This document shows positions 19,237 to 30,794 of a stretch of 64,000 bases of DNA, piece after piece. The stretch's first letter is position 1; the number at the start of each line of letters is the position of its first letter. This DNA is from Synergistaceae bacterium (GTDB taxonomy: Bacteria; Synergistota; Synergistia; Synergistales; Aminobacteriaceae): assembly GCA_018436595.1 (NCBI GenBank), contig JAHDLC010000010.1:62001-126000 (forward strand). The letters run 5' to 3'. A program made the position numbers and the translations under genes. Below the pieces are notes generated by a model that worked only from the letters and a program-made list of their open reading frames with translations, was not told the origin of the DNA and made no database searches.

Positions 19237-19265
19237 TTGACCTTTTCCCCTTTTTCCGCAACAAT
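19237..19265 (+). promoter_or_regulatory. Promoter of the LarA/PdxA2 operon
   Basis: TTGACC (19237-19242), 17-nt spacer, AACAAT (19260-19265). It would start transcription near 19272 and give a leader of about 100 nt before the GTG start at 19372. No operator palindrome was obvious beside it. Confidence 0.6.
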
Positions 19266-19371
19266 ACGTCCGGAATATCCGGCATTGCCGCTTCCGGAGA
19301 TTCTCTTCCCGCGGCCCTGTCCGGCCCCTGCGGGGCATTGACGGTTCCCGCGGAAAAGGAGGCGATTCCCC

Positions 19372-20655
19372 GTGCGGGTTTCCATTCCCTACGGCAGTTC
19401 ACGGATTAGCTGCGACATCACTGATTCCAGGCTTCGGGCCGTTCTTGCCCCGACGCTCCCGAACGCTTCGGCGAAGAATCCGGGGGACGAGCTCGTCAAA
19501 GCGTCCCTCGCCCGTCCCGTCGGCTCCCTTCCCCTCAGGGAGCTCGCCCGGGGAAAGAAGCGCGTGGTGATCCTGTCAAGCGACCACACCCGGCCCGTGC
19601 CCAGCGCCGTCATCATGCCCCTTCTCCTGGAGGAGATCCGCGGCGGGAATCCCGGGGCGGACATTACCATTCTCGTCGCCACGGGATGCCACAGGTGCAC
19701 CACTGACGATGAACTCGAGAAGCGGTACGGCACTGAGATTGTCCGCACCGTGAAGATCGTGGTCCACGACAGCCGGGACGAGAGCGGCCACGTGGCCGCG
19801 GGGACACTTCCCTCCGGCGGGGAGCTTGTCCTGAACCGGCTTGCCGTGGAAGCGGACCTTCTCGTGGCGGAAGGATTCATCGAACCCCACTTCTTCGCCG
19901 GGTTTTCCGGCGGGCGGAAGAGTGTCCTTCCCGGCGTGGCGGCCTACAGGACGGTGCTGGCCAACCACTGCGCCGAGTTCATCGCCTCCCCCGGCGCAAG
20001 AACGGGGATCCTCGAAGGCAATCCCATCCACCGGGATATGGTCTACGCCGCCCGGAAAGCCGGGCTCGCCTTCATCTGCAACGTGGTCCTCGACCCGGAA
20101 AAGCGAATCGTCGCCGCATTCAGCGGAGATATGGAAAAAGCCCACGAAGAAGGGTGCGCCTTTCTGGCCCGCTTCGCGAAGGTGCAGGCCGCACCGGCGG
20201 ATATCGTGATCACGGGCAACGGCGGATATCCCCTCGACCAGAACATCTACCAGGCAGTGAAGAGCATGACCGCCGCCGAGGCCTCCTGCAGGCCGGGAGG
20301 GGTCATCATAGAAGCTGCGGAATGCAGGGACGGTCACGGAGGCGAGGCTTTCTTCCATGCCTTCCGGGATATCCCCACCCCCAGGGGCGTGCAGGAGAGC
20401 ATCCTCACCAGGGGGAGGGACAGCACCGAACCGGACCAGTGGGAAATCCAGATCTTCGCCAGGATCCTCACGAACCATCCCGTCATTCTGGTCTCGTCGG
20501 CTCCGAGGGAGACGGCGGAGTACATGAACATGAAATGGGCTTCCTCTCTTCAGGACGCCCTTGCGCTGGCGGAGGAGATCCTGGGCGACGGGAACGCCAC
20601 CGTGACGGTCATTCCCGACGGCGTGTCGGTTATCGTGGACGCCACCGGGAACTGA
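19372..20655 (+). CDS. LarA-family nickel-dependent 2-hydroxyacid racemase/epimerase
   Basis: 427 residues, GTG start after AAAAGGAGGCGATTCCCC. The protein carries the LarA signature: DHTRPVP (71-77), His107 in ATGCHRCTTDDE, His173 and Lys183 in GFIEPHFFAGFSGGRKSVLPG, and His199 in LANHC. These are each one residue off from His108, His174, Lys184 and His200 of L. plantarum lactate racemase, the residues that act in proton/hydride transfer and hold the nickel-pincer nucleotide. LarA homologues racemise or epimerise C2 of many 2-hydroxyacids. Its operon partners (PdxA2, DUF1537 kinase, glycerate kinase) point to a four-carbon or three-carbon sugar acid and not lactate. The cofactor genes larB, larC and larE are not in the window. 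It is the first gene after the promoter at 19237. Confidence 0.88.
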   Translation: MRVSIPYGSSRISCDITDSRLRAVLAPTLPNASAKNPGDELVKASLARPVGSLPLRELARGKKRVVILSSDHTRPVPSAVIMPLLLEEIRGGNPGADITILVATGCHRCTTDDELEKRYGTEIVRTVKIVVHDSRDESGHVAAGTLPSGGELVLNRLAVEADLLVAEGFIEPHFFAGFSGGRKSVLPGVAAYRTVLANHCAEFIASPGARTGILEGNPIHRDMVYAARKAGLAFICNVVLDPEKRIVAAFSGDMEKAHEEGCAFLARFAKVQAAPADIVITGNGGYPLDQNIYQAVKSMTAAEASCRPGGVIIEAAECRDGHGGEAFFHAFRDIPTPRGVQESILTRGRDSTEPDQWEIQIFARILTNHPVILVSSAPRETAEYMNMKWASSLQDALALAEEILGDGNATVTVIPDGVSVIVDATGN

Positions 20656-20690
20656 AGGGGCCCCGCCGGCCTGAAAAACACAGTAGCGTC

Positions 20691-20712
20691 CTGCCCGGCC
20701 GGGGCCGGGCAG
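20691..20712 (+). terminator. GC-rich hairpin between larA-like and pdxA2-like genes
   Basis: A perfect 9-bp stem CTGCCCGGC/GCCGGGCAG (20691-20699 and 20704-20712) with a CGGG loop, then CCATTATTTTAT. It sits inside the operon and may partly end transcription, raising the first gene over the rest. Confidence 0.6.
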
Positions 20713-20741
20713 CCATTATTTTATCCGAAGGAGAGATTGTC

Positions 20742-21725
20742 ATGACCAGGCCCGTTATCGGCATTACCATCGGAGACCCCTCGGGAGTGGGGCCGGAGAT
20801 CAGCCTCAAGGCCCTGAGAAACGAGGAGGTACTGTCCTCATGCATCCCGGTGCTGTACGGCGACGAGGCGGTCCTCCGCAGGGCGGCGCCCATCGTCGGC
20901 TGCACGAAAGAAATCGTCCCCATCGGCGGGCCTGAAGAGGCGAAGGAGGGGCGGATCAGCGTCGTATCCCCCGGCGTCCTCACCGGGCCCTATGAATTCG
21001 CGAAAGTCCAGGGGCAGTGCGGCAGGGCGGCCTTTGCCTATATCGAACGGGCCATTTCCGATGCCATGGCGGGAAAGATCGCCGCTGTGGTGACGGGCCC
21101 CCTCAACAAGGAAGCCCTCCACGCCGGGGGAATCAACTATTCGGGCCACACGGAAATATTCGCCGACCTGACGGGAACGAAGGACTACGCCATGCTGCTC
21201 ATGGGCGGGGGCGTCCGGGTGATCCACGTCTCCACCCACGTGGCTCTCCGGGAAGCCTGCGACCGGGCAACGAAGGAACGGGTTCTGACGGTGATCCGTC
21301 TTGCCGACAAGGCGGTGAAAGCCCTCGGGGTGCCGGAGCCCCGGATCGCCGTGGCGGGACTCAATCCCCACAGCGGCGAAAGCGGCCTCTTCGGCCATGA
21401 GGAGATCGAGGAGATCATCCCCGCCATCGAAGCCGCCAGGGGCGAGGGTATGAATGTCACCGGCCCGGTACCGCCCGACACCGTCTTCGTGAAAACCCTG
21501 CGGGGCGAATCGGACATCGTGGTGGCCATGTACCACGACCAGGGACACATTCCCCTCAAGATCACCGATTTCATGGGCGGAGTCAACGTGACGGTGGGGC
21601 TTCCCATCATCCGCACCTCGGTGGATCACGGCACAGCCTACGGCAAGGCCGGCAAGGGGACGGCGGACGAGTCGAGCATGGTGTCGGCGGTTCGGGCGGC
21701 GGTGCAGTTCGCCCGGAACCGGTAG
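20742..21725 (+). CDS. pdxA2: PdxA2-family 4-phosphate dehydrogenase (four-carbon acid sugar catabolism)
   Basis: 327 residues, PdxA fold. Landmarks: ITIGDPSGVGPEISLKAL (about 6-23), VVTGPLNKEALHAGG with GHTEIFADLTGT (about 120-150), the metal-binding His residues in STHVALREA, and YHDQGHIPLKI plus RTSVDHGTAYGKAGKGTADESSM near the C-terminus. PdxA itself oxidises 4-phosphohydroxy-L-threonine in vitamin B6 synthesis; the PdxA2 branch oxidises and decarboxylates D-threonate or D-erythronate 4-phosphate to dihydroxyacetone phosphate. The adjacent DUF1537 kinase is the reason for choosing PdxA2. The ATG at 20742 follows GAAGGAGAGATTGTC; an upstream in-frame start would run through the terminator hairpin and is rejected. 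Confidence 0.86.
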   Translation: MTRPVIGITIGDPSGVGPEISLKALRNEEVLSSCIPVLYGDEAVLRRAAPIVGCTKEIVPIGGPEEAKEGRISVVSPGVLTGPYEFAKVQGQCGRAAFAYIERAISDAMAGKIAAVVTGPLNKEALHAGGINYSGHTEIFADLTGTKDYAMLLMGGGVRVIHVSTHVALREACDRATKERVLTVIRLADKAVKALGVPEPRIAVAGLNPHSGESGLFGHEEIEEIIPAIEAARGEGMNVTGPVPPDTVFVKTLRGESDIVVAMYHDQGHIPLKITDFMGGVNVTVGLPIIRTSVDHGTAYGKAGKGTADESSMVSAVRAAVQFARNR

Positions 21726-21747
21726 AGGGGGGAGCGCACCGCTCCTC

Positions 21748-23007
21748 ATGGACAGCCGATACGTCATCATAGCCGACGACCTCACAGGCGCGAACGACAC
21801 CGGTATCCAGTTTCTCAAGGCAGGCTATTCCTCCTCCGTTGTCCTGGATTCCGGCGCCCTCCGGGACCTGGGAGCGGGAGAGGCGGCGGTCCTCGACACG
21901 GAATCGAGGAACATTCCGGAGAGGGAGGCCGCCGCCGTACTGGAAAAGGCCCTTCCCCATCTCGCGCCGCTGAAGGGGAAGGGGATCTTCTTCAAGAAAG
22001 TTGACTCCACCCTGAGAGGCAATATCCGGGCGGAGACGGCGGTGCTCCGGAACGGACTGGAGTTCTCCCTCACGGTCTTTGCCCCCTCCTATCCCGGGAA
22101 CCGGCGGACCGCCGTGAACGGTGTGCTTCTGCTGGACGGCGTTCCCGTGGCGGAGACGGAAATGGGACGGGATCCCAGGAAGCCGGCGCTCACCTCCTCC
22201 CTGGCGGAATGCCTTCAGGGAAGGGATGCTGCCGGAGTGAGAACCGTGTCCCTGGACGAGATACGGGGAGGAATGGTCCCCGTGATCCTCGAAAGCTCCG
22301 GATTCAGGGGAACCTTCTGTTTCGACGGGGAGACGGAGGAGGACCTGGGGCTCATCGCCGGAGGCGTTCTCGCCTCCGTTCCAGCGGAAGAAGTCCTGTG
22401 GGTCGGGTCGGCGGGCCTCGCTGGAGCCCTGGTTTCCGCGCCCCGGCCGGTGCTGCTCGTGGTGGCCAGCCTCAGCCCGGGGAGCGCCCTCCAGGCAAGG
22501 CACGTCATTGACAGGGGGCTGGCCGCTCCCGTCCATGCCGATATCGGCGGGCTGCTCACCGACGGACCCGCTGAGGCGGAACGTCTTGCCAGGGAAGCTG
22601 CGGCTCTGCTCCGCCGGGGAAGGAATGTCCTCCTGGCTTCCTCCCTGGAGGAACGGCAGGTGGAGGCGGGCCGAAACGCCGACGCAGGGGAGCGAATCTC
22701 CGCCGTGCTGGCGGACGCGGTTTCCCGCGTCCTGGCGGCGTGCGGGACAGGCGGTGTCTTCGTCACCGGCGGCGAGGCCGCCATTCATGTGGTCCGGGCC
22801 CTCGGCGGGCGAGGTACCTCCCTGGTGGGAGAAGTGGAGGCGGGCATTCCTCTGGTGCTGCTCCTTGGAGGCCCCCTGGAGGGGCTTCCCCTGATCACCA
22901 AGGCCGGGGGATTCGGTGGGCCGGAGACCATGGAGCGCTGCATCGCCGTCCTGTCCTCCTGCCGGGGAAAGAAAAATTCGAAAAACGAGGTGACCGCTGG
23001 ATCATGA
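21748..23007 (+). CDS. Four-carbon acid sugar kinase (DUF1537; DtnK/OtnK family)
   Basis: 419 residues. The N-terminal domain opens with VIIADDLTGANDTGIQFLKAG (about 6-26), typical of this family, and has FFKKVDSTLRGNIRAE (about 80-95). The C-terminal nucleotide-binding domain has LVVASLSPGSALQARHV and FVTGGEAAIHVVRALG, with LVLLLGGPLEGLPLITKAGGFG (about 370-391) closing the ATP site. The family phosphorylates D-threonate, L-threonate or D-erythronate at O4, giving the substrate of PdxA2-type dehydrogenases, which is exactly the upstream neighbour. The exact stereoisomer cannot be read from sequence. Its stop overlaps the glycerate kinase start (ATGA). Confidence 0.88.
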   Translation: MDSRYVIIADDLTGANDTGIQFLKAGYSSSVVLDSGALRDLGAGEAAVLDTESRNIPEREAAAVLEKALPHLAPLKGKGIFFKKVDSTLRGNIRAETAVLRNGLEFSLTVFAPSYPGNRRTAVNGVLLLDGVPVAETEMGRDPRKPALTSSLAECLQGRDAAGVRTVSLDEIRGGMVPVILESSGFRGTFCFDGETEEDLGLIAGGVLASVPAEEVLWVGSAGLAGALVSAPRPVLLVVASLSPGSALQARHVIDRGLAAPVHADIGGLLTDGPAEAERLAREAAALLRRGRNVLLASSLEERQVEAGRNADAGERISAVLADAVSRVLAACGTGGVFVTGGEAAIHVVRALGGRGTSLVGEVEAGIPLVLLLGGPLEGLPLITKAGGFGGPETMERCIAVLSSCRGKKNSKNEVTAGS

Positions 23008-24269
23008 AACAGATTCGGGATGACGCCATGAAGATCGGCCTGAAGGCCATAGAGACGGTCCTGCCGGAAAACGCGGTACGAGCCGCCCTTCAGGGCGGGG
23101 AATTCACCGCCAGGCTCTCCGGCGGAGGGGAGATTGTCCTCGTCGCCATCGGAAAAGCTGCGTGGCGGATGGCGAAGGCCGCATCCGAAACGCTCGGGGA
23201 GAAGCTCTCGGGCGGAACGGTGATCACCAAGTACGGCCACTCCATGGGCCCCATAGAAGGCCTTGAAATCTTCGAAGCGGGGCATCCTTTCCCCGACGGA
23301 AACACCCTCACCGCCACGGCCAGGGCACTGGAGAAAGTGAAGAATCTCTCGGATAAGGACACAGTGCTTTTCCTTGTGTCGGGGGGAGGCTCCGCCCTGT
23401 TTGAAAAGCCCCGGGACGGCGTGTCCCTGGAGGATCTGGTGTCGGTGACGGACCAGCTCCTTGCCTGCGGCGCCGATATCGTGGAGATCAACACGATCCG
23501 GAAGCGCCTCTCCTCCGTCAAGGGGGGCAGATTCGCCCGTTGTGTACAGCCCGCCCGTGTTTTTGCCGTGGTGCTCTCCGACGTGCTGGGAGACCGCCTC
23601 GACAGCATCGCTTCGGGACCGGCCCATCCCGACGGATCCACGGCGCGGGAGTCACTCCGGATCGTGGACAAGTACGGCCTCTCCCTGCGGCCGGGACTTC
23701 TCGATGCCCTCGGGGAGGAGACGCCGAAGGAACTGGAAAATGTTTCCACGGTGATTGCGGGAAGCGTCTCCGCCCTCTGCGCAGCCGCGGAATCATCCGC
23801 CGCCGGACTGGGGTACCGGACGCTGCTGCTCACCACCACCCTGAACTGCGAGGCCCGGGAAGCGGGCTCTTTTCTGGCCTCCATCGCCCGGCAGATCCGG
23901 GCCTGCGGCACCCCCCTGGTGCCTCCATGCGCCGTGGTTCTTGGAGGGGAGACGGTAGTGCATCTCAAGGGGAAGGGCAGAGGAGGCCGGAACCAGGAAC
24001 TGGCCCTGGCGGCCGCGCCGGGAATCAGGGGGCTGAAGGACACCGTTCTTCTCTCCCTGGGGTCCGATGGTACCGACGGACCCACCGACGCGGCGGGAGG
24101 CCTTGTTGACGGCCATACCGCCGAAGTGCTCGCAGGGCTCGGCATGGACCCGGAGGCCCTGCTGGCGGAGAATGACTCCTACCGGGGGCTTGACGCCTGC
24201 GGATGTCTGGTCAGAACGGGGCCCACGGGGACCAACGTGAACGACCTTGCGGTGCTGCTCGTCAGATAG
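23004..24269 (+). CDS. Glycerate 2-kinase (GckA/MOFRL family)
   Basis: 421 residues. It contains GEIVLVAIGKAAWRMAKAA (about 36-54), LFLVSGGGSALFEKP (about 122-136), INTIRKRLSSVKGGRFA (about 161-177) and the C-terminal MOFRL domain GRGGRNQELALAAA...LGSDGTDGPTDAAGGLVD (about 322-375). The enzyme phosphorylates D-glycerate at C2, feeding lower glycolysis. In this operon it would handle a glycerate produced from, or co-imported with, the four-carbon acid. It overlaps the preceding kinase gene by 4 nt (ATGA) and is followed by a strong terminator, so it is the last gene of the operon. Confidence 0.88.
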   Translation: MKQIRDDAMKIGLKAIETVLPENAVRAALQGGEFTARLSGGGEIVLVAIGKAAWRMAKAASETLGEKLSGGTVITKYGHSMGPIEGLEIFEAGHPFPDGNTLTATARALEKVKNLSDKDTVLFLVSGGGSALFEKPRDGVSLEDLVSVTDQLLACGADIVEINTIRKRLSSVKGGRFARCVQPARVFAVVLSDVLGDRLDSIASGPAHPDGSTARESLRIVDKYGLSLRPGLLDALGEETPKELENVSTVIAGSVSALCAAAESSAAGLGYRTLLLTTTLNCEAREAGSFLASIARQIRACGTPLVPPCAVVLGGETVVHLKGKGRGGRNQELALAAAPGIRGLKDTVLLSLGSDGTDGPTDAAGGLVDGHTAEVLAGLGMDPEALLAENDSYRGLDACGCLVRTGPTGTNVNDLAVLLVR

Positions 24270-24290
24270 CCCCCGGCGGACAAAGAAGAA

Positions 24291-24317
24291 GGGCTCCCCT
24301 TTTCGGGGAGCCCTTTT
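24291..24317. terminator. Strong bidirectional terminator
   Basis: GGGCTCCCC (24291-24299) pairs perfectly with GGGGAGCCC (24305-24313), followed by TTTTGTC; an AAAGAAGAA tract on the other side makes it work for the minus strand too. It separates the four-carbon acid operon from the convergent PAS-GGDEF-like gene. Confidence 0.88.
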
Positions 24318-25606: not shown

Positions 25607-25731
25607 ATCCGATTCAGCTCCCCTTTTATTTCTGTTCTTCAAAGGCCGGAAAGGCGCCCCACGCCGCTTGCCAGCAATTGTACCATACAGAAAGTCCCGG
25701 GGTTCGGAGGGATTTTGCATGCCATATCCTC

Positions 25732-25760
25732 TTGACAGGATGTATTTGATTCACTATTCT
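25732..25760 (+). promoter_or_regulatory. Promoter of the GntR-headed operon
   Basis: Perfect TTGACA (25732-25737), 17-nt spacer, TATTCT (25755-25760). The predicted start of transcription (about 25767) falls inside the first operator. Confidence 0.8.
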
Positions 25761-25761
25761 T

Positions 25762-25793
25762 GTGGTATACCATGGGAGGAAGTGGTATACCAC
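25762..25793 (+). promoter_or_regulatory. Twin palindromic GntR operators
   Basis: Two copies of the perfect palindrome TGGTATACCA at 25763-25772 and 25783-25792, with centres 20 bp apart (two helical turns). The second is extended to GTGGTATACCAC. They directly follow the -10 box. This form is typical of FCD/FadR-type GntR regulators, so the adjacent GntR protein probably represses its own operon here. Confidence 0.8.
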
Positions 25794-26456
25794 TTGAAAA
25801 AGGACAATCTCGCATCAGGAGTCTATGAAAGAATAAAAAAGGGAATTCTTTCTCTGGAGTTTCCTCCGGAGTTCATCCTTCAGGAGCGGAACCTCGCAGA
25901 GGAGCTCGGCGTGAGCCGGACACCCGTCCGGGAGGCGGTCCACCGCCTCTCCCAGGAGGGGTGGCTCCGGGTGAATGCCCGGAGGAACATCCAGGTCCGG
26001 CCGGTTTCCGTATCGGATCTCCGGGAGGTGTTCCAGGCCCGGCGGATCCTGGAGCGGGACGCCCTGGAGCTTCTCCTTTCCACGGGTCTCGCCCGGGAGG
26101 CGGGACGGAAGATGGCCGCCATGGCGGCAGTGATGAACGATTCCCGGGGAAGCCTGTTCTCCTTCATCACCGCGGACCAGTCTTTTCATTCGGTGCTCTT
26201 CCTCGTCCTCGGAAATTCGGTTTTGCGGAAATTCTGGAACGCCGTGAGCGAGGAGATGATCTGGCTGGGGATGCAGGCCATGAATGAAAAACGGTACGAC
26301 GACGTCCTCGAGGAACACGGAAAAATCCTCGGGGCCGTGGAAGAGGGCAAAAAACGGGCTGCCCGGGAGGCCCTTCTGGACCATCTCGAAAAAACAGAGG
26401 ACATACTGCTGCGGAAGATCGACGACGTATCGTCCTCATACGGAAGAGGGAGCTGA
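25794..26456 (+). CDS. GntR-family transcriptional regulator (FCD subfamily)
   Basis: About 220 residues. An N-terminal winged helix (VYERIKKGILSLEFPPEFILQERNLAEELGVSRTPVREAVHRLSQEGWL) is followed by an all-helical FCD ligand-binding domain (LREVFQARRILERDALELL, ADQSFHSVLFLVLGN, EEHGKILGAVEEGKK with the usual His residues). The start is set at the TTG 25794 because an in-frame ATG at 25740 lies in the promoter spacer and cannot be in the mRNA; a GTG at 25782 is the other option but is only 2 nt from GGAGG. It heads the DUF2848/nitrilase/TRAP/cupin operon and its own operators overlap the start of transcription, so it should be an autorepressor released by the pathway substrate. Confidence 0.82.
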   Translation: MKKDNLASGVYERIKKGILSLEFPPEFILQERNLAEELGVSRTPVREAVHRLSQEGWLRVNARRNIQVRPVSVSDLREVFQARRILERDALELLLSTGLAREAGRKMAAMAAVMNDSRGSLFSFITADQSFHSVLFLVLGNSVLRKFWNAVSEEMIWLGMQAMNEKRYDDVLEEHGKILGAVEEGKKRAAREALLDHLEKTEDILLRKIDDVSSSYGRGS

Positions 26457-26460
26457 CGAC

Positions 26461-27144
26461 ATGCGGATGAAAAGCGCGGTACTGGGGAAGGACGGTGTCT
26501 CCGGGGAGATCATTCTCTCCTGGGATGCCTGCGTGGCCGCCGGATATACCGGCCGGGACCAGGCAGGGGTGCTCGCCCACGTGGAGGAGCTGCGGAAGAT
26601 AGGGGTTCCCGCCCCGGAAAAGGTGCCCTCCATGTACTGGGTGGAGCCGGAGCGGGTGTCGAATACGGGACTGCTCTGGGTGGTGGGGGGCTCCACGTCG
26701 GGCGAAGGAGAGGTGTTCCTCGCCCGGGACGAGGGAAACAATCTCTGCGTCACCGTGGCCAGCGACCATACGGACAGGGCTCTCGAGACGGTGTCGGTGG
26801 CCAAGGCGAAGCAGGCCTGCTCCAAGGTCATCGGCTCCCTCTTCTGGAGGGTGGACGAGGTCAGGGGGCACTGGGATTCCATCGAACTGAGAACCTGGAA
26901 TGACGGGAAACTCTACCAGGAGGGGACCCTCGGGAAAATGCTTCCGCCGGAGAAGCTCTTCGAGCTGGCCCGGGAGGACGCCCCGGCGGGGACGGGAAGG
27001 CTCGCCCTGTTCAGCGGCACCCTGCCGGTGCTCGGCGAGGGGATCGTCTACGGGACGCACTATGTTCTCTCCCTGAAGGATCCCTTTCTTGGAAGGGAGA
27101 TCCGGCACGAGTATTCCGTGCGGGTCCTTCCCGACCGAAACTGA
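26461..27144 (+). CDS. DUF2848-family protein
   Basis: 227 residues, cytoplasmic. It matches the DUF2848 pattern: SGEIILSWDACVAAGYTGRD-type opening (about 12-35), VLAHVEELRKIGVPAP, then CVTVASDHTDRALETVSVAKAKQ (about 96-118), VDEVRGHWDSIELRTW and YQEGTLGKMLPPEKLF (about 155-170). The conserved SDHTDR and HWD segments look like active-site blocks, but the family has no established reaction. The ATG at 26461 sits 8 nt after GGGAG and only 4 nt after the GntR stop. Its position between a GntR regulator and a nitrilase-family enzyme, in front of a TRAP importer, suggests it acts on the imported compound or its product. Confidence 0.82.
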   Translation: MRMKSAVLGKDGVSGEIILSWDACVAAGYTGRDQAGVLAHVEELRKIGVPAPEKVPSMYWVEPERVSNTGLLWVVGGSTSGEGEVFLARDEGNNLCVTVASDHTDRALETVSVAKAKQACSKVIGSLFWRVDEVRGHWDSIELRTWNDGKLYQEGTLGKMLPPEKLFELAREDAPAGTGRLALFSGTLPVLGEGIVYGTHYVLSLKDPFLGREIRHEYSVRVLPDRN

Positions 27145-27156
27145 GGAGGTGGTTCC

Positions 27157-27960
27157 GTGAAGCTTCGCGTCGGCGTGCTGCAGCTTGATGTCGCCCTGGG
27201 CGACCGTGAAAGGAACAGGAAAAACGTGGAGAAGTGGATGGCCTCCGTGTCCGTTCCGTCCGACATGCCCACGGCGGTGGTCATACCGGAAATCTGGGAC
27301 GTTGGATATGCCCTCGACAGGGCAGCGGAGCTTGCCGACCCCGAGGGCAGGGGGGCGGCGGAATTTCTCGGGGGTCTGGCCAGGAAGTATGGCGTCTGGT
27401 TCGTCGGCGGTTCCGTGCTGGCCTCCACGGGGAGCGGATACGCAAACCGGGCCCAGGTGATCAACCCGAGGGGCGAGCTGGTGGCCTACTACGACAAGGT
27501 CCATCTCATCCGTCTCATGGAGGAGGAGAAGTATTTCACCGGCGGCAGGAAGGAGTGTCTCTTCTCCCTCGGAGGAGCGAAGGCGGGCTGCGTCATCTGC
27601 TACGACATCCGGTTCTGCGAGTGGCTCCGCACCTATGCCCTCCAGGGCGCGGAGGTGCTTTTCGTGAGCGCAGAATGGCCCAGTCCCCGGGCGGATCACT
27701 GGAAGACCCTGCTCCGGGCGCGGGCCATCGAGAACCAGATGTACGTGGTGGCCTGCAACCGGTGCGGCACCACGGGAGACACCCATTTCGGCGGCGGTTC
27801 CATGATCCTCGGTCCCAAGGGAGAGATTCTCTTCGAGGGCGGGGAAGGCGAGGAAGCAGGGTTCGTCACCATTGACCTCGACGAGGTGGCCAAGACCAGG
27901 AATTTCCTGACGGTCTTCAATGACAGGGTACCCGAAATCTACGGGACCCATCTACAATAG
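27157..27960 (+). CDS. Carbon-nitrogen hydrolase (nitrilase superfamily)
   Basis: 267 residues, GTG start after GAGGAGGTGGTTCC. The nitrilase Glu-Lys-Cys triad is visible: Glu in VVIPEIWDVGY (about 45), Lys in AYYDKVHLI (about 113) and Cys in AGCVICYDIRFCEW (about 149). The length and RAIENQMYVVACNRCG segment fit small cytoplasmic amidases of the omega-amidase/YafV type, which cleave amides to a carboxylate and ammonia. The exact substrate is unknown. It lies 12 nt after the DUF2848 gene and 12 nt before dctP, so it is in the same operon and probably releases ammonia from an imported amide. Confidence 0.86.
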   Translation: MKLRVGVLQLDVALGDRERNRKNVEKWMASVSVPSDMPTAVVIPEIWDVGYALDRAAELADPEGRGAAEFLGGLARKYGVWFVGGSVLASTGSGYANRAQVINPRGELVAYYDKVHLIRLMEEEKYFTGGRKECLFSLGGAKAGCVICYDIRFCEWLRTYALQGAEVLFVSAEWPSPRADHWKTLLRARAIENQMYVVACNRCGTTGDTHFGGGSMILGPKGEILFEGGEGEEAGFVTIDLDEVAKTRNFLTVFNDRVPEIYGTHLQ

Positions 27961-27972
27961 GAGGGGAAGAAA

Positions 27973-28962
27973 ATGAAGAAAAGCGGAGTGTTTCTTGCGG
28001 CGGTTGCGGTGTGCATGATTCTGCTGACCGGGACGGCGTTCGCGGCGGTGGAGTTCAAGTTCGCCCACTCGGGAAGCCTGGAGCATCAGTACCAGATCGG
28101 CGCGGAGCAGTTCAAGAAGCTGGTCGAAGAGAAGTCCGGCGGCGAGATGAAGGTCACCATCTTCCCCCAGGCCCAGCTCGGGGGCGAACGTGACCTGGCC
28201 GAAGGCGTCCGCATGGGCACCATCGAGATGAGTTCCGTGGCGGCGGGGAACATGGCGGGATTCGTCCCCGAGCTTCAGGTTTTCGGCGTGCCTTTCCTCT
28301 TCCAGACCAGGGAGCAGGTCTATGCCGTCCTTGACGGCCCCGTGGGCAAGGACCTGGCGGACATCATGCTCGGCAAGGGGTTCGTGAACCTCTCCATCTG
28401 GGAGGTGGGCTTCAGGAACATCACCAACAACACCCGGCCCGTGAAGACTCCCGAGGACATGAAGGGCCTGAAGATCCGGGTCCAGGAGTCCAAGATCTGG
28501 ATCGAATTCATGAAGCGCCTTGGTGCCATCGCCACCCCCATCCCCTTCGGTGAACTGTACACCGCCCTGCAGCAGAAGGTTGTCGACGGCCAGGAGAATC
28601 CCGTGGCCACCATTTACTCCATGAAGTTCTACGAGGTGCAGAAGTACCTCTCCCTGACGGGCCACACCTACGAGCCCGCCCTCGTGGTGGCCAATCCCAA
28701 GTGGTTCAACGGCCTCGACCCGAAGCACCAGGCCATCCTGAAGGAAGCGGCCATGGAAGCGGCTGCCTTCCAGCGGCAGAAACTTGCCGACCTCGACAGG
28801 GAACGTTTCGATGTCATCAGGAAGGCCGGCGTAGAGGTGGAGGAGAATCCCGACAAGGCGGCTTTCGCCAAGGCTACCGAGGATCTTCACAAGGTGCTGG
28901 CCGACTCCGTTCCCGAGGCTCTTGTCCAGAAGATAAAGGATGAAGTCGCAAAGGTGAAGTAG
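27973..28962 (+). CDS. TRAP transporter solute-binding protein (DctP family)
   Basis: 329 residues with a signal peptide (MKKSGVFLAAVAVCMILLTGTAFAA). Landmarks: FKFAHSGSLEHQYQIGAEQFKKL (about 28-50), IFPQAQLGGERDLAEGVRMGTIEM (about 68-91), DMKGLKIRVQESKIWIEFMKRLGA (about 155-178, with the Arg that binds the carboxylate of most TRAP ligands) and QQKVVDGQENPV (about 198-209). It binds a carboxylate-type solute in the periplasm. It is 12 nt after the nitrilase gene and is separated from the membrane subunits by a perfect terminator. Confidence 0.92.
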   Translation: MKKSGVFLAAVAVCMILLTGTAFAAVEFKFAHSGSLEHQYQIGAEQFKKLVEEKSGGEMKVTIFPQAQLGGERDLAEGVRMGTIEMSSVAAGNMAGFVPELQVFGVPFLFQTREQVYAVLDGPVGKDLADIMLGKGFVNLSIWEVGFRNITNNTRPVKTPEDMKGLKIRVQESKIWIEFMKRLGAIATPIPFGELYTALQQKVVDGQENPVATIYSMKFYEVQKYLSLTGHTYEPALVVANPKWFNGLDPKHQAILKEAAMEAAAFQRQKLADLDRERFDVIRKAGVEVEENPDKAAFAKATEDLHKVLADSVPEALVQKIKDEVAKVK

Positions 28963-28971
28963 TGCCCCGCG

Positions 28972-29005
28972 GCTCCGGGGGAGCTTTCCCCCGGAGCTTT
29001 TTTTT
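28972..29005 (+). terminator. Perfect intrinsic terminator inside the TRAP operon
   Basis: A 10-bp stem GCTCCGGGGG/CCCCCGGAGC (28972-28981 and 28988-28997), 6-nt loop, then eight T residues. It lies between the binding-protein gene and the small membrane subunit, so partial read-through would give far more binding protein than membrane proteins. Confidence 0.9.
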
Positions 29006-29027
29006 CGAGAGCTCGAGGTGGAGTCAA

Positions 29028-29516
29028 GTGAAAAAAATACAGACGCTGTTTTCCGTTCTCACGGGAATCTGTCTTGCGGTAGTCTTTGCCGTGACCTTCG
29101 GTCAGGTGATCCAGCGGTATGTGTTCCAGCTCCCCATGCCCTGGGCGACGGACATTATCAGGATTTTCTTCGTCTACTCCGTCTTTTTCGGCATGGCGGT
29201 GGGGGTGTTCAAAAAAGCCCATCTCAACATCGACGTGCTGGTCCAGGTCCTGCCTCCGCGGCTCAAGCCCTGGTTCGATCTCCTGTCCAACCTTGTGGTC
29301 TGCACCTTCCTGTCGGTGGTGCTGCGGTACAGTTTCTCCTTCATGACGGCCAACGCCGACCAGGTGACCCCCTATCTTCTTTTCCCCATGAGCTACGTCT
29401 ACATGGTCATACCTTTTACGGCGGCTTTCATGGTCCTCTTCCTCGTGCTGGACACGGTGAAGCTCCTCGGCAGCCTTGCCGGAAGAGGGGATAACTCCTC
29501 TTCCGCCGGGAGGTGA
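29028..29516 (+). CDS. TRAP transporter small membrane subunit (DctQ family)
   Basis: 162 residues with four predicted transmembrane segments: about 5-28, 42-60, 78-100 and 122-145. The WATDIIRIFFVYSVFFGMAVGVFKKAHLNIDVL block (about 38-71) is the DctQ signature. The GTG at 29028 is chosen because GAGGTGGAG precedes it and the protein then begins at the membrane helix; the upstream in-frame start would lie before the terminator. It pairs with DctM in the membrane. Confidence 0.88.
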   Translation: MKKIQTLFSVLTGICLAVVFAVTFGQVIQRYVFQLPMPWATDIIRIFFVYSVFFGMAVGVFKKAHLNIDVLVQVLPPRLKPWFDLLSNLVVCTFLSVVLRYSFSFMTANADQVTPYLLFPMSYVYMVIPFTAAFMVLFLVLDTVKLLGSLAGRGDNSSSAGR

Positions 29517-29522
29517 CGGGCC

Positions 29523-30794
29523 ATGCTCTGGATAGCCGGCCTGTTCGGCGTTTTCCTGCTGGGAATCCCCATATCCTTCTCCCTCGGGGCCACGACCCTT
29601 GCGGGGCTGCTCGGCATGGGACTTCCCCTCGAAGTCGTCGTCCAGCGGATGTTCACGGGGGTAGACAACTTTGCCTTCGTGGCCATCCCCCTGTTTATTC
29701 TCGCGGGCAACCTGATGGCCGTGGGGGGCATTTCAAAACGGATCACCACCTTTTCAGAAGCCCTGGTCGGGCACTGGCCCGGCGGTCTCGGCATGGTGGC
29801 CATCGTGGCCTCCATGATCTTTGCCGCCGTCACGGGATCGGCCATTGCTGCCACGGCGGCCATCGGTGCACTGCTCATCAGCGAGATGATCTCCAAGGGA
29901 TATTCCCGGGCCTATTCGGCATCCCTCGTCGCAACGGCGGGATCCATCGGCCCCATCATCCCGCCGAGCATTCCCCTGGTGGTGTACGGCGTCATCGTGA
30001 GCAGCTCCATCGCGAAGCTGTTCATGGGGGGTGTCATCCCCGGTCTTCTCATGGGCTTTTTCCTCATGGTGGCCAACTGGCTCATCAGCAAACGGAGGGG
30101 ATATGTGGGACGGGAAAAGAGGGCCTCAGCGGCTGAACTGCGCCAGGGTCTCAAGGATGCCGTTCTTGCCCTTCTGATGCCGGTGATCATCATCGGCGGC
30201 ATTGTGGCTGGGATCTTTACTCCCACCGAGTCGGCCGCCATCGCGGTCGCCTACGCCCTGCTCCTCGGCTGGCTGGTCTACCGGGAACTGACCTGGAAAA
30301 AGGTGGTCCACGCCTTCATCGAGGCGGCCATAACGAACGGGGTCATCCTCACGGTGCTCATGACGGCGAGCCTGTTTATCTGGTTCATGACGGTGAAGAT
30401 GATCCCCCAGTCCATCACCCAGAGCCTGCTCCAGGTCATCGACACAAAGTGGGGAGCCCTGATGGTGATGAACATCATCCTGCTCATCGCCGGGACCTTC
30501 ATCGACACCACCAGCGCCCTCACCATCTTCGTCCCCCTGTTCCTTCCCCTGGTGAAGACCTTCGGCATCGACCTGATCCATTTCGGCGTCATGGTGGCGG
30601 TCAACCTGACCATCGGCATGTGCACCCCGCCTCTTGGGGTCTGCCTCTTCGTCTCCTGCGAGATCGCCGGCACTTCCCTGCGGGAGATGTTCAGGGACCT
30701 GGTGATCATGCTCATACCCCTGCTGATTCTGCTGCTGCTCATAACCTACGTACCGGCAACGGTGACCTGGCTGCCCGATTTCCTCGGGCTCTGA
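29523..30794 (+). CDS. TRAP transporter large permease (DctM family)
   Basis: 423 residues, about 11-12 transmembrane segments. It carries PLFILAGNLMAVGGISKRI, ATGSAIAATAAIGALLISEM (read as VTGSAIAATAAIG, about 102-115), GPIIPPSIPLVVYG (about 141-154) and the C-terminal GMCTPPLGVCLFVSC (about 360-374), all typical of the Na+- or H+-coupled DctM channel. It starts 6 nt after the DctQ stop, behind GGGAGGTGA. With DctP and DctQ it completes the importer. Confidence 0.92.
   Translation: MLWIAGLFGVFLLGIPISFSLGATTLAGLLGMGLPLEVVVQRMFTGVDNFAFVAIPLFILAGNLMAVGGISKRITTFSEALVGHWPGGLGMVAIVASMIFAAVTGSAIAATAAIGALLISEMISKGYSRAYSASLVATAGSIGPIIPPSIPLVVYGVIVSSSIAKLFMGGVIPGLLMGFFLMVANWLISKRRGYVGREKRASAAELRQGLKDAVLALLMPVIIIGGIVAGIFTPTESAAIAVAYALLLGWLVYRELTWKKVVHAFIEAAITNGVILTVLMTASLFIWFMTVKMIPQSITQSLLQVIDTKWGALMVMNIILLIAGTFIDTTSALTIFVPLFLPLVKTFGIDLIHFGVMVAVNLTIGMCTPPLGVCLFVSCEIAGTSLREMFRDLVIMLIPLLILLLLITYVPATVTWLPDFLGL

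Follow-up and report, generated by a model that had tools for sequence, protein, structure and literature searches.

LarA Racemases and Acid-Sugar Degradation

NPN-containing enzymes of the LarA family invert the configuration at C2 through proton-coupled hydride transfer (PMC11851776). Among lactate racemases, those whose residue 359 is T, E or Q accept both lactate and glycerate as substrates, Q leading to a preference for glycerate; efficiencies of 9.8e4 /M/s for lactate and 1.0e4 /M/s for glycerate have been measured for LarAH51 (E359), and of 1.14e5 /M/s for glycerate in the case of LarAH43 (Q359) (PMC11770544). These enzymes (T, E or Q359) also epimerise 4-deoxy-threonate/erythronate, at only 50-170 /M/s, that is, 500-2000 times below their best substrate, the slow epimerisation of 4-deoxy-D-threonate being best with Q359; no activity has been reported on 2-hydroxyvalerate or larger side chains, and D-erythronate and D-threonate themselves are absent among the reactions reported (PMC11770544). 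Glycerate racemisation by LarA enzymes was recorded in vitro in a 2024 study, which left its physiological role open (PMC11770544).

The D-threonate pathway uses a D-threonate kinase of the DUF1537 family together with PdxA2 (Zhang et al. 2016, as cited in PMC10580937 and PMC7954711). In Ralstonia eutropha, D-threonate is imported by the permease KdgT (PMC10079672).

Organisation of the larA Locus

The window analysed here is a stretch of 64,000 nucleotides from a Synergistaceae bacterium (assembly GCA_018436595.1, contig JAHDLC010000010.1, positions 62,001 to 126,000). An earlier note, made from the sequence alone, had described at 19237-24317 a promoter, a larA homologue, PdxA2, a four-carbon acid-sugar kinase, a glycerate 2-kinase and a terminator, all of which were recovered, the promoter as a plausible and modest one:

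19237..19265, + strand: promoter-like site TTGACC-17-AACAAT (9/12 consensus matches)
19372-20655, + strand: larA (427 aa; Pfam Lar_N and LarA_C)
20691..20712, + strand: hairpin in the larA-pdxA gap (9 pairs; stem kept in relative L115)
20742-21725, + strand: pdxA2 (327 aa; Pfam PdxA)
21748-23007, + strand: DUF1537 four-carbon acid-sugar kinase (419 aa; SBD_N and NBD_C)
23004-24269, + strand: MOFRL-type glycerate 2-kinase (421 aa; DUF4147 and MOFRL)
24289..24315, no strand assigned: intrinsic-terminator-like hairpin between convergent genes (11 pairs, from folding)
25719..30794, + strand: GntR/FCD regulator, DUF2848, nitrilase and DctP-DctQ-DctM TRAP transporter (family matches)

The site at 19237 is a plausible sigma-70-like promoter. 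Its score is modest, 3 such sites having been found against 1.2 expected, but both hexamers and their spacing are kept upstream of larA in L115, an 88%-identical relative. The larA, pdxA, DUF1537 kinase and glycerate kinase genes are all intact and co-directional. The 86-bp gap between larA and pdxA contains the strong hairpin conserved in L115, a possible attenuator, terminator or processing site, so that co-transcription of the four genes, in the single operon of the earlier note, can be considered only probable. The hairpin at 24289-24315, taking into account its location between convergent genes, may terminate both of them.

The genes at 25719-30794, which also follow the larA operon in L115 and, in L118, come immediately after the glycerate kinase, could possibly provide regulation and uptake for the larA operon system. 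The nitrilase-family hydrolase in this block suggests an amide- or nitrile-linked substrate.

The LarA of the Window Belongs to the Lactate-Racemase Group

The LarA encoded in the window scores 610.7 bits against the NCBIfam lactate racemase equivalog NF033504 (cut-off 460), far more than it reaches with the malate, LarAH10 and hexonate models. Among solved structures it is closest to 2yjg, a lactate racemase apoprotein, and to 5huq, the LarA of L. plantarum. The four catalytic/metal residues listed in the earlier note (H107, H173, K183 and H199) are all present; in L. plantarum numbering, the catalytic residues His108 and His174, the NPN residues R75, K184 and H200, and also Q295 and K298, are conserved. 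The pocket was read by alignment to solved LarAs at the specificity positions 175, 176, 358 and 359 (PMC11770544). At these positions the enzyme carries F174, F175, W357 and E358 in its own numbering, which corresponds to the LAR signature F175, F176, W358 and E/Q359 (PMC11770544), and at the positions compared its pocket residues do not differ from those of lactate racemases. Thus, by family model and pocket residues, this protein is assigned to the lactate-racemase group (LAR).

Elsewhere in the 3.2 Mb genome, larC, larE and a LarB-like AIRC protein of 249 aa are encoded, in answer to the earlier note, which had asked for larBCE outside the operon, and the NPN cofactor could therefore be made. 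The genome contains four LarAs, the one in the window being the sole member of the lactate group, while the other three have malate-racemase-like or other pockets and appear malate- or sugar-acid-like. One of these paralogues (L146:6625-11987, contig C25 of this genome, G000), with an R-V-A-H pocket, shares its operon with genes for an Ldh_2 dehydrogenase and a TRAP transporter, and may have a new specificity, since it falls below every NCBIfam LarA cut-off.

Tetronate and Glycerate Kinase Genes

The PdxA of the window has as its closest solved chains Salmonella PdxA2 (2hi1, 4jqp) and the D-threonate 4-phosphate dehydrogenase 6e85, and conserves the motifs GHTE, STHV, YHDQG and DHGTA, making it probable that it is a 4-phospho-D-threonate (or -erythronate) 3-dehydrogenase. 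The best NCBIfam match of the DUF1537 kinase is the D-threonate kinase, with 240 bits, under the equivalog cut-off of 450, so its predicted substrate is kept as D-threonate or D-erythronate. The two genes are adjacent, as is expected for D-threonate/D-erythronate degradation. For the glycerate 2-kinase, the closest solved chain is the glycerate kinase 2b8n (E 1.6e-140), and a search for both glycerate kinase families found no other such enzyme in the genome. In these respects the earlier note is right: its naming of the genes, its link of LarA to the NPN cofactor and its PdxA2-DUF1537 tetronate branch are all supported. A second pdxA-DUF1537-DctM-DctQ-DctP operon, without larA, is found in the same genome (L142:7842-13041, contig C2, outside the window).

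Neighbourhoods of LarA Relatives

About 150 relatives were compared (80 close ones from named genomes, 20 from related genomes, and 60 further loci, the majority from Clostridia genomes sampled evenly), their neighbouring genes being identified by homology-supported calls and tblastn. Two kinds of loci were distinguished: those in which larA accompanies lactate genes (lactate permease, GlcD, EtfAB), and those in which it lies with glycerate kinase, pdxA, DUF1537, KdgT permease or UxaA-type dehydratase genes.

Non-lactate larA genes repeatedly adjoin a glycerate kinase belonging to one of two unrelated families. The MOFRL type is found beside larA in Synergistaceae, Spirochaetes and some Clostridia (L058, L063, L115-L118, L226, L227, L229), and the PF02595 type in Clostridia (L044, L079, L080, L089, L090, L100, L104, L224, L238). 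In most of the genomes checked, that of the window included, the larA-adjacent kinase is the sole glycerate kinase found. A genome-wide search for DUF1537 found none in six genomes (G460, G070, G064, G065, G289, G461) whose larA adjoins a glycerate kinase with no DUF1537 nearby, whereas it is present in 8/9 checked genomes with KdgT- or pdxA-linked larA, the exception being the KdgT-linked L047; many of the genomes in these presence/absence comparisons are metagenome-assembled. In this comparison, larA therefore does not co-occur strictly with tetronate genes.

The five nearest relatives of the window LarA also lie amid glycerate or acid-sugar genes. The conserved larA-pdxA2-DUF1537 neighbourhood that the earlier note had asked to look for does exist, the full larA-pdxA-DUF1537-glycerate kinase order recurring in L115 and L118. 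In L116 the larA-glycerate kinase pair is kept without adjacent pdxA/DUF1537, a DUF1537 gene being located elsewhere in that genome, and in L117 the order is larA-SAF-UxaA-KdgT-DUF1537-glycerate kinase. A sulfolactate reading of the SAF-UxaA genes (L117/L119/L044) was considered, but family models indicate only the galactarate/altronate dehydratase family.

Loci with KdgT-larA, or with larA and pdxA-DUF1537, and no nearby glycerate kinase were also found (L045, L046, L049, L050, L121, L128, L183). KdgT, whose cluster (c7) had been considered as a dehydrogenase or PdxA, a reading that was rejected, forms a two-gene unit with larA in L121, L128, L130, L131 and L045-L050 (Synergistaceae, Spirochaetes), sometimes with a NUDIX-like gene and with no adjacent glycerate kinase.

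A divergent LarA group (L226-L230, L232-L235) has an F-F-W-C pocket, like the poorly active LarAH42; its larA adjoins a split SAF + UxaA/GarD-type dehydratase in 9/9 loci, some of which also contain a GntP permease, tartronate semialdehyde reductase or MOFRL glycerate kinase.

Residue 359 and Gene Context

In the first locus set, E359 accompanied lactate genes and Q359 glycerate or acid-sugar genes, lactate context being defined by LctP/GlcD/Etf and the other context by glycerate kinase/acid genes. The corresponding prediction was stated before the Clostridia test set was fetched. In this set, lactate loci showed 15 E versus 1 Q and glycerate/acid-sugar loci 12 Q/C versus 0 E, although 9 of these 12 belong to the divergent C359 group, which the prediction had not foreseen; when they are left out, p = 0.004. 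With both sets taken together, the ratio of E/T to Q/C/M is 46:2 in lactate loci and 2:37 in glycerate/acid-sugar loci. The raw Fisher value (p = 1e-19) should not be read literally, since the counts go back to few independent changes: in the tree no more than 4 context changes are supported as independent, 3 of them concordant and none discordant, a number with which a sign test cannot reach significance, and does not.

The two E359 exceptions are the window LarA and that of L115, placed inside an otherwise Q359 clade in which the nearest relatives L116-L119 have Q. Since E359 is typical of lactate loci, lactate may matter more in the window, and its LarA may have lactate plus glycerate activity, as LarAH51 does.

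Proposed Role of LarA

Taking all these data into account, a slight preference (a probability of roughly 0.52) is given to a LarA that would act as a glycerate/lactate racemase, mainly on glycerate, feeding the glycerate kinase of its operon in parallel to a D-threonate (or D-erythronate) branch. The earlier note had named this kinase and assigned it no role. The strongest argument for glycerate as the common substrate is that two unrelated kinases catalysing the same reaction adjoin the same racemase, and the reading is further favoured by the persistence of larA beside glycerate kinases in genomes without any DUF1537.

Thus, the substrates would be taken up perhaps by the downstream DctPQM TRAP transporter. 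LarA, as an NPN-dependent racemase of short-chain 2-hydroxyacids, would then probably serve mainly to interconvert L- and D-glycerate while also acting on lactate, and D-glycerate would be phosphorylated to 2-phosphoglycerate by the probably co-transcribed glycerate 2-kinase, as expected from its family. The substrate, the transport and the direction of this flux are inferred. In the parallel branch, D-threonate (or D-erythronate) would be converted to dihydroxyacetone phosphate by the DUF1537 kinase and PdxA2. With both branches, the operon would be a unit for the utilisation of C3/C4 acid sugars.

D-erythronate and D-threonate differ at C2, and the earlier note had proposed that LarA is the C2 epimerase interconverting them, allowing one kinase/dehydrogenase pair to use both. 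To our knowledge, such an epimerisation has not been described for LarA. The proposal is stereochemically sensible, and it is consistent with the gene order kept in L115 and L118 and with the larA genes that occur with KdgT and pdxA-DUF1537, away from any glycerate kinase, in Spirochaetes and Clostridia (L045, L046, L049, L050, L183); the KdgT-linked loci count in its favour because the R. eutropha permease imports D-threonate (PMC10079672), as does the DUF1537 gene of nearly all genomes with KdgT- or pdxA-linked larA. The Q359-favoured activity of lactate racemases on 4-deoxy-D-threonate points the same way (PMC11770544). However, the pocket is that of a lactate racemase, a group with those very low efficiencies on 4-deoxytetronates (PMC11770544) and without reported activity on side chains of the size of 2-hydroxyvalerate or larger, the six glycerate-kinase-linked genomes lack DUF1537, and the second pdxA-DUF1537-TRAP operon of this same genome manages without larA. 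The KdgT/pdxA-DUF1537 relatives thus keep the epimerase among the candidates, whereas pocket, kinetics and DUF1537-less loci make it a poorer fit than a glycerate racemase, and we regard it as unlikely. The broader claim, that C2 epimerisation of D-erythronate/D-threonate is the physiological function of the LarAs found in KdgT/pdxA/DUF1537 loci (the Q359 type and those related to it, the one studied here among them), is equally doubtful.

Slightly less probable still is that LarA is an ordinary lactate racemase sharing its locus with acid-sugar genes by chance. It would explain E359, found in the enzymes of lactate loci, and the fact that this is the only lactate-group LarA of the genome, which elsewhere (L142) contains EtfB-EtfA-GlcD genes; nevertheless, among the genes called around larA there is no lactate permease, GlcD or Etf, and the five nearest relatives are located with glycerate or acid-sugar genes. 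Finally, a single promiscuous LarA that served all branches of the operon, with C2 inversion of glycerate and a slower one of tetronates and lactate, would agree with the promiscuity measured in the lactate-racemase group (PMC11770544) and with the occurrence of non-lactate relatives alongside glycerate kinase, tetronate genes or both, but the very low rates measured on C4 analogues (PMC11770544) make it improbable.

Relation to Known Systems

A literature search restricted to open-licence papers did not find the term 'glycerate racemase', nor 'lactate racemase' and 'glycerate kinase' in one paper. The window LarA adds one more enzyme to a group already described, and the activity that it probably has would be one measured in vitro before. 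What appears to be new, as a proposal that can be put to the test, is the recognition of glycerate racemases from their genomic setting, together with the residue-359 code. The recurrence of two kinases and the split at residue 359 offer a likely role for the glycerate activity of LarA and a hypothesis of specificity set by one residue, and many genes named 'lactate racemase' may be misnamed.

The locus shares with the D-threonate pathway the adjacent PdxA2 and DUF1537 genes, whose best family and structure matches are D-threonate enzymes, but adds to them larA and a glycerate kinase, and its DUF1537 kinase remains below the D-threonate kinase cut-off. The product of the fourth gene matches the MOFRL-type glycerate 2-kinase 2b8n over its full length; unlike the kinases of this type as known, it is coupled to a LarA racemase. 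With L. plantarum LarA, LarAH43 and LarAH51 (PMC11770544), the window LarA has in common the family model, the catalytic His pair, the NPN ligands and the F-F-W residues, and it shares E359 with LarAH51, whereas its nearest relatives carry Q359, like the glycerate-preferring LarAH43. It differs from the known lactate racemases in that its gene lies amid acid-sugar and glycerate genes and not among lactate genes.
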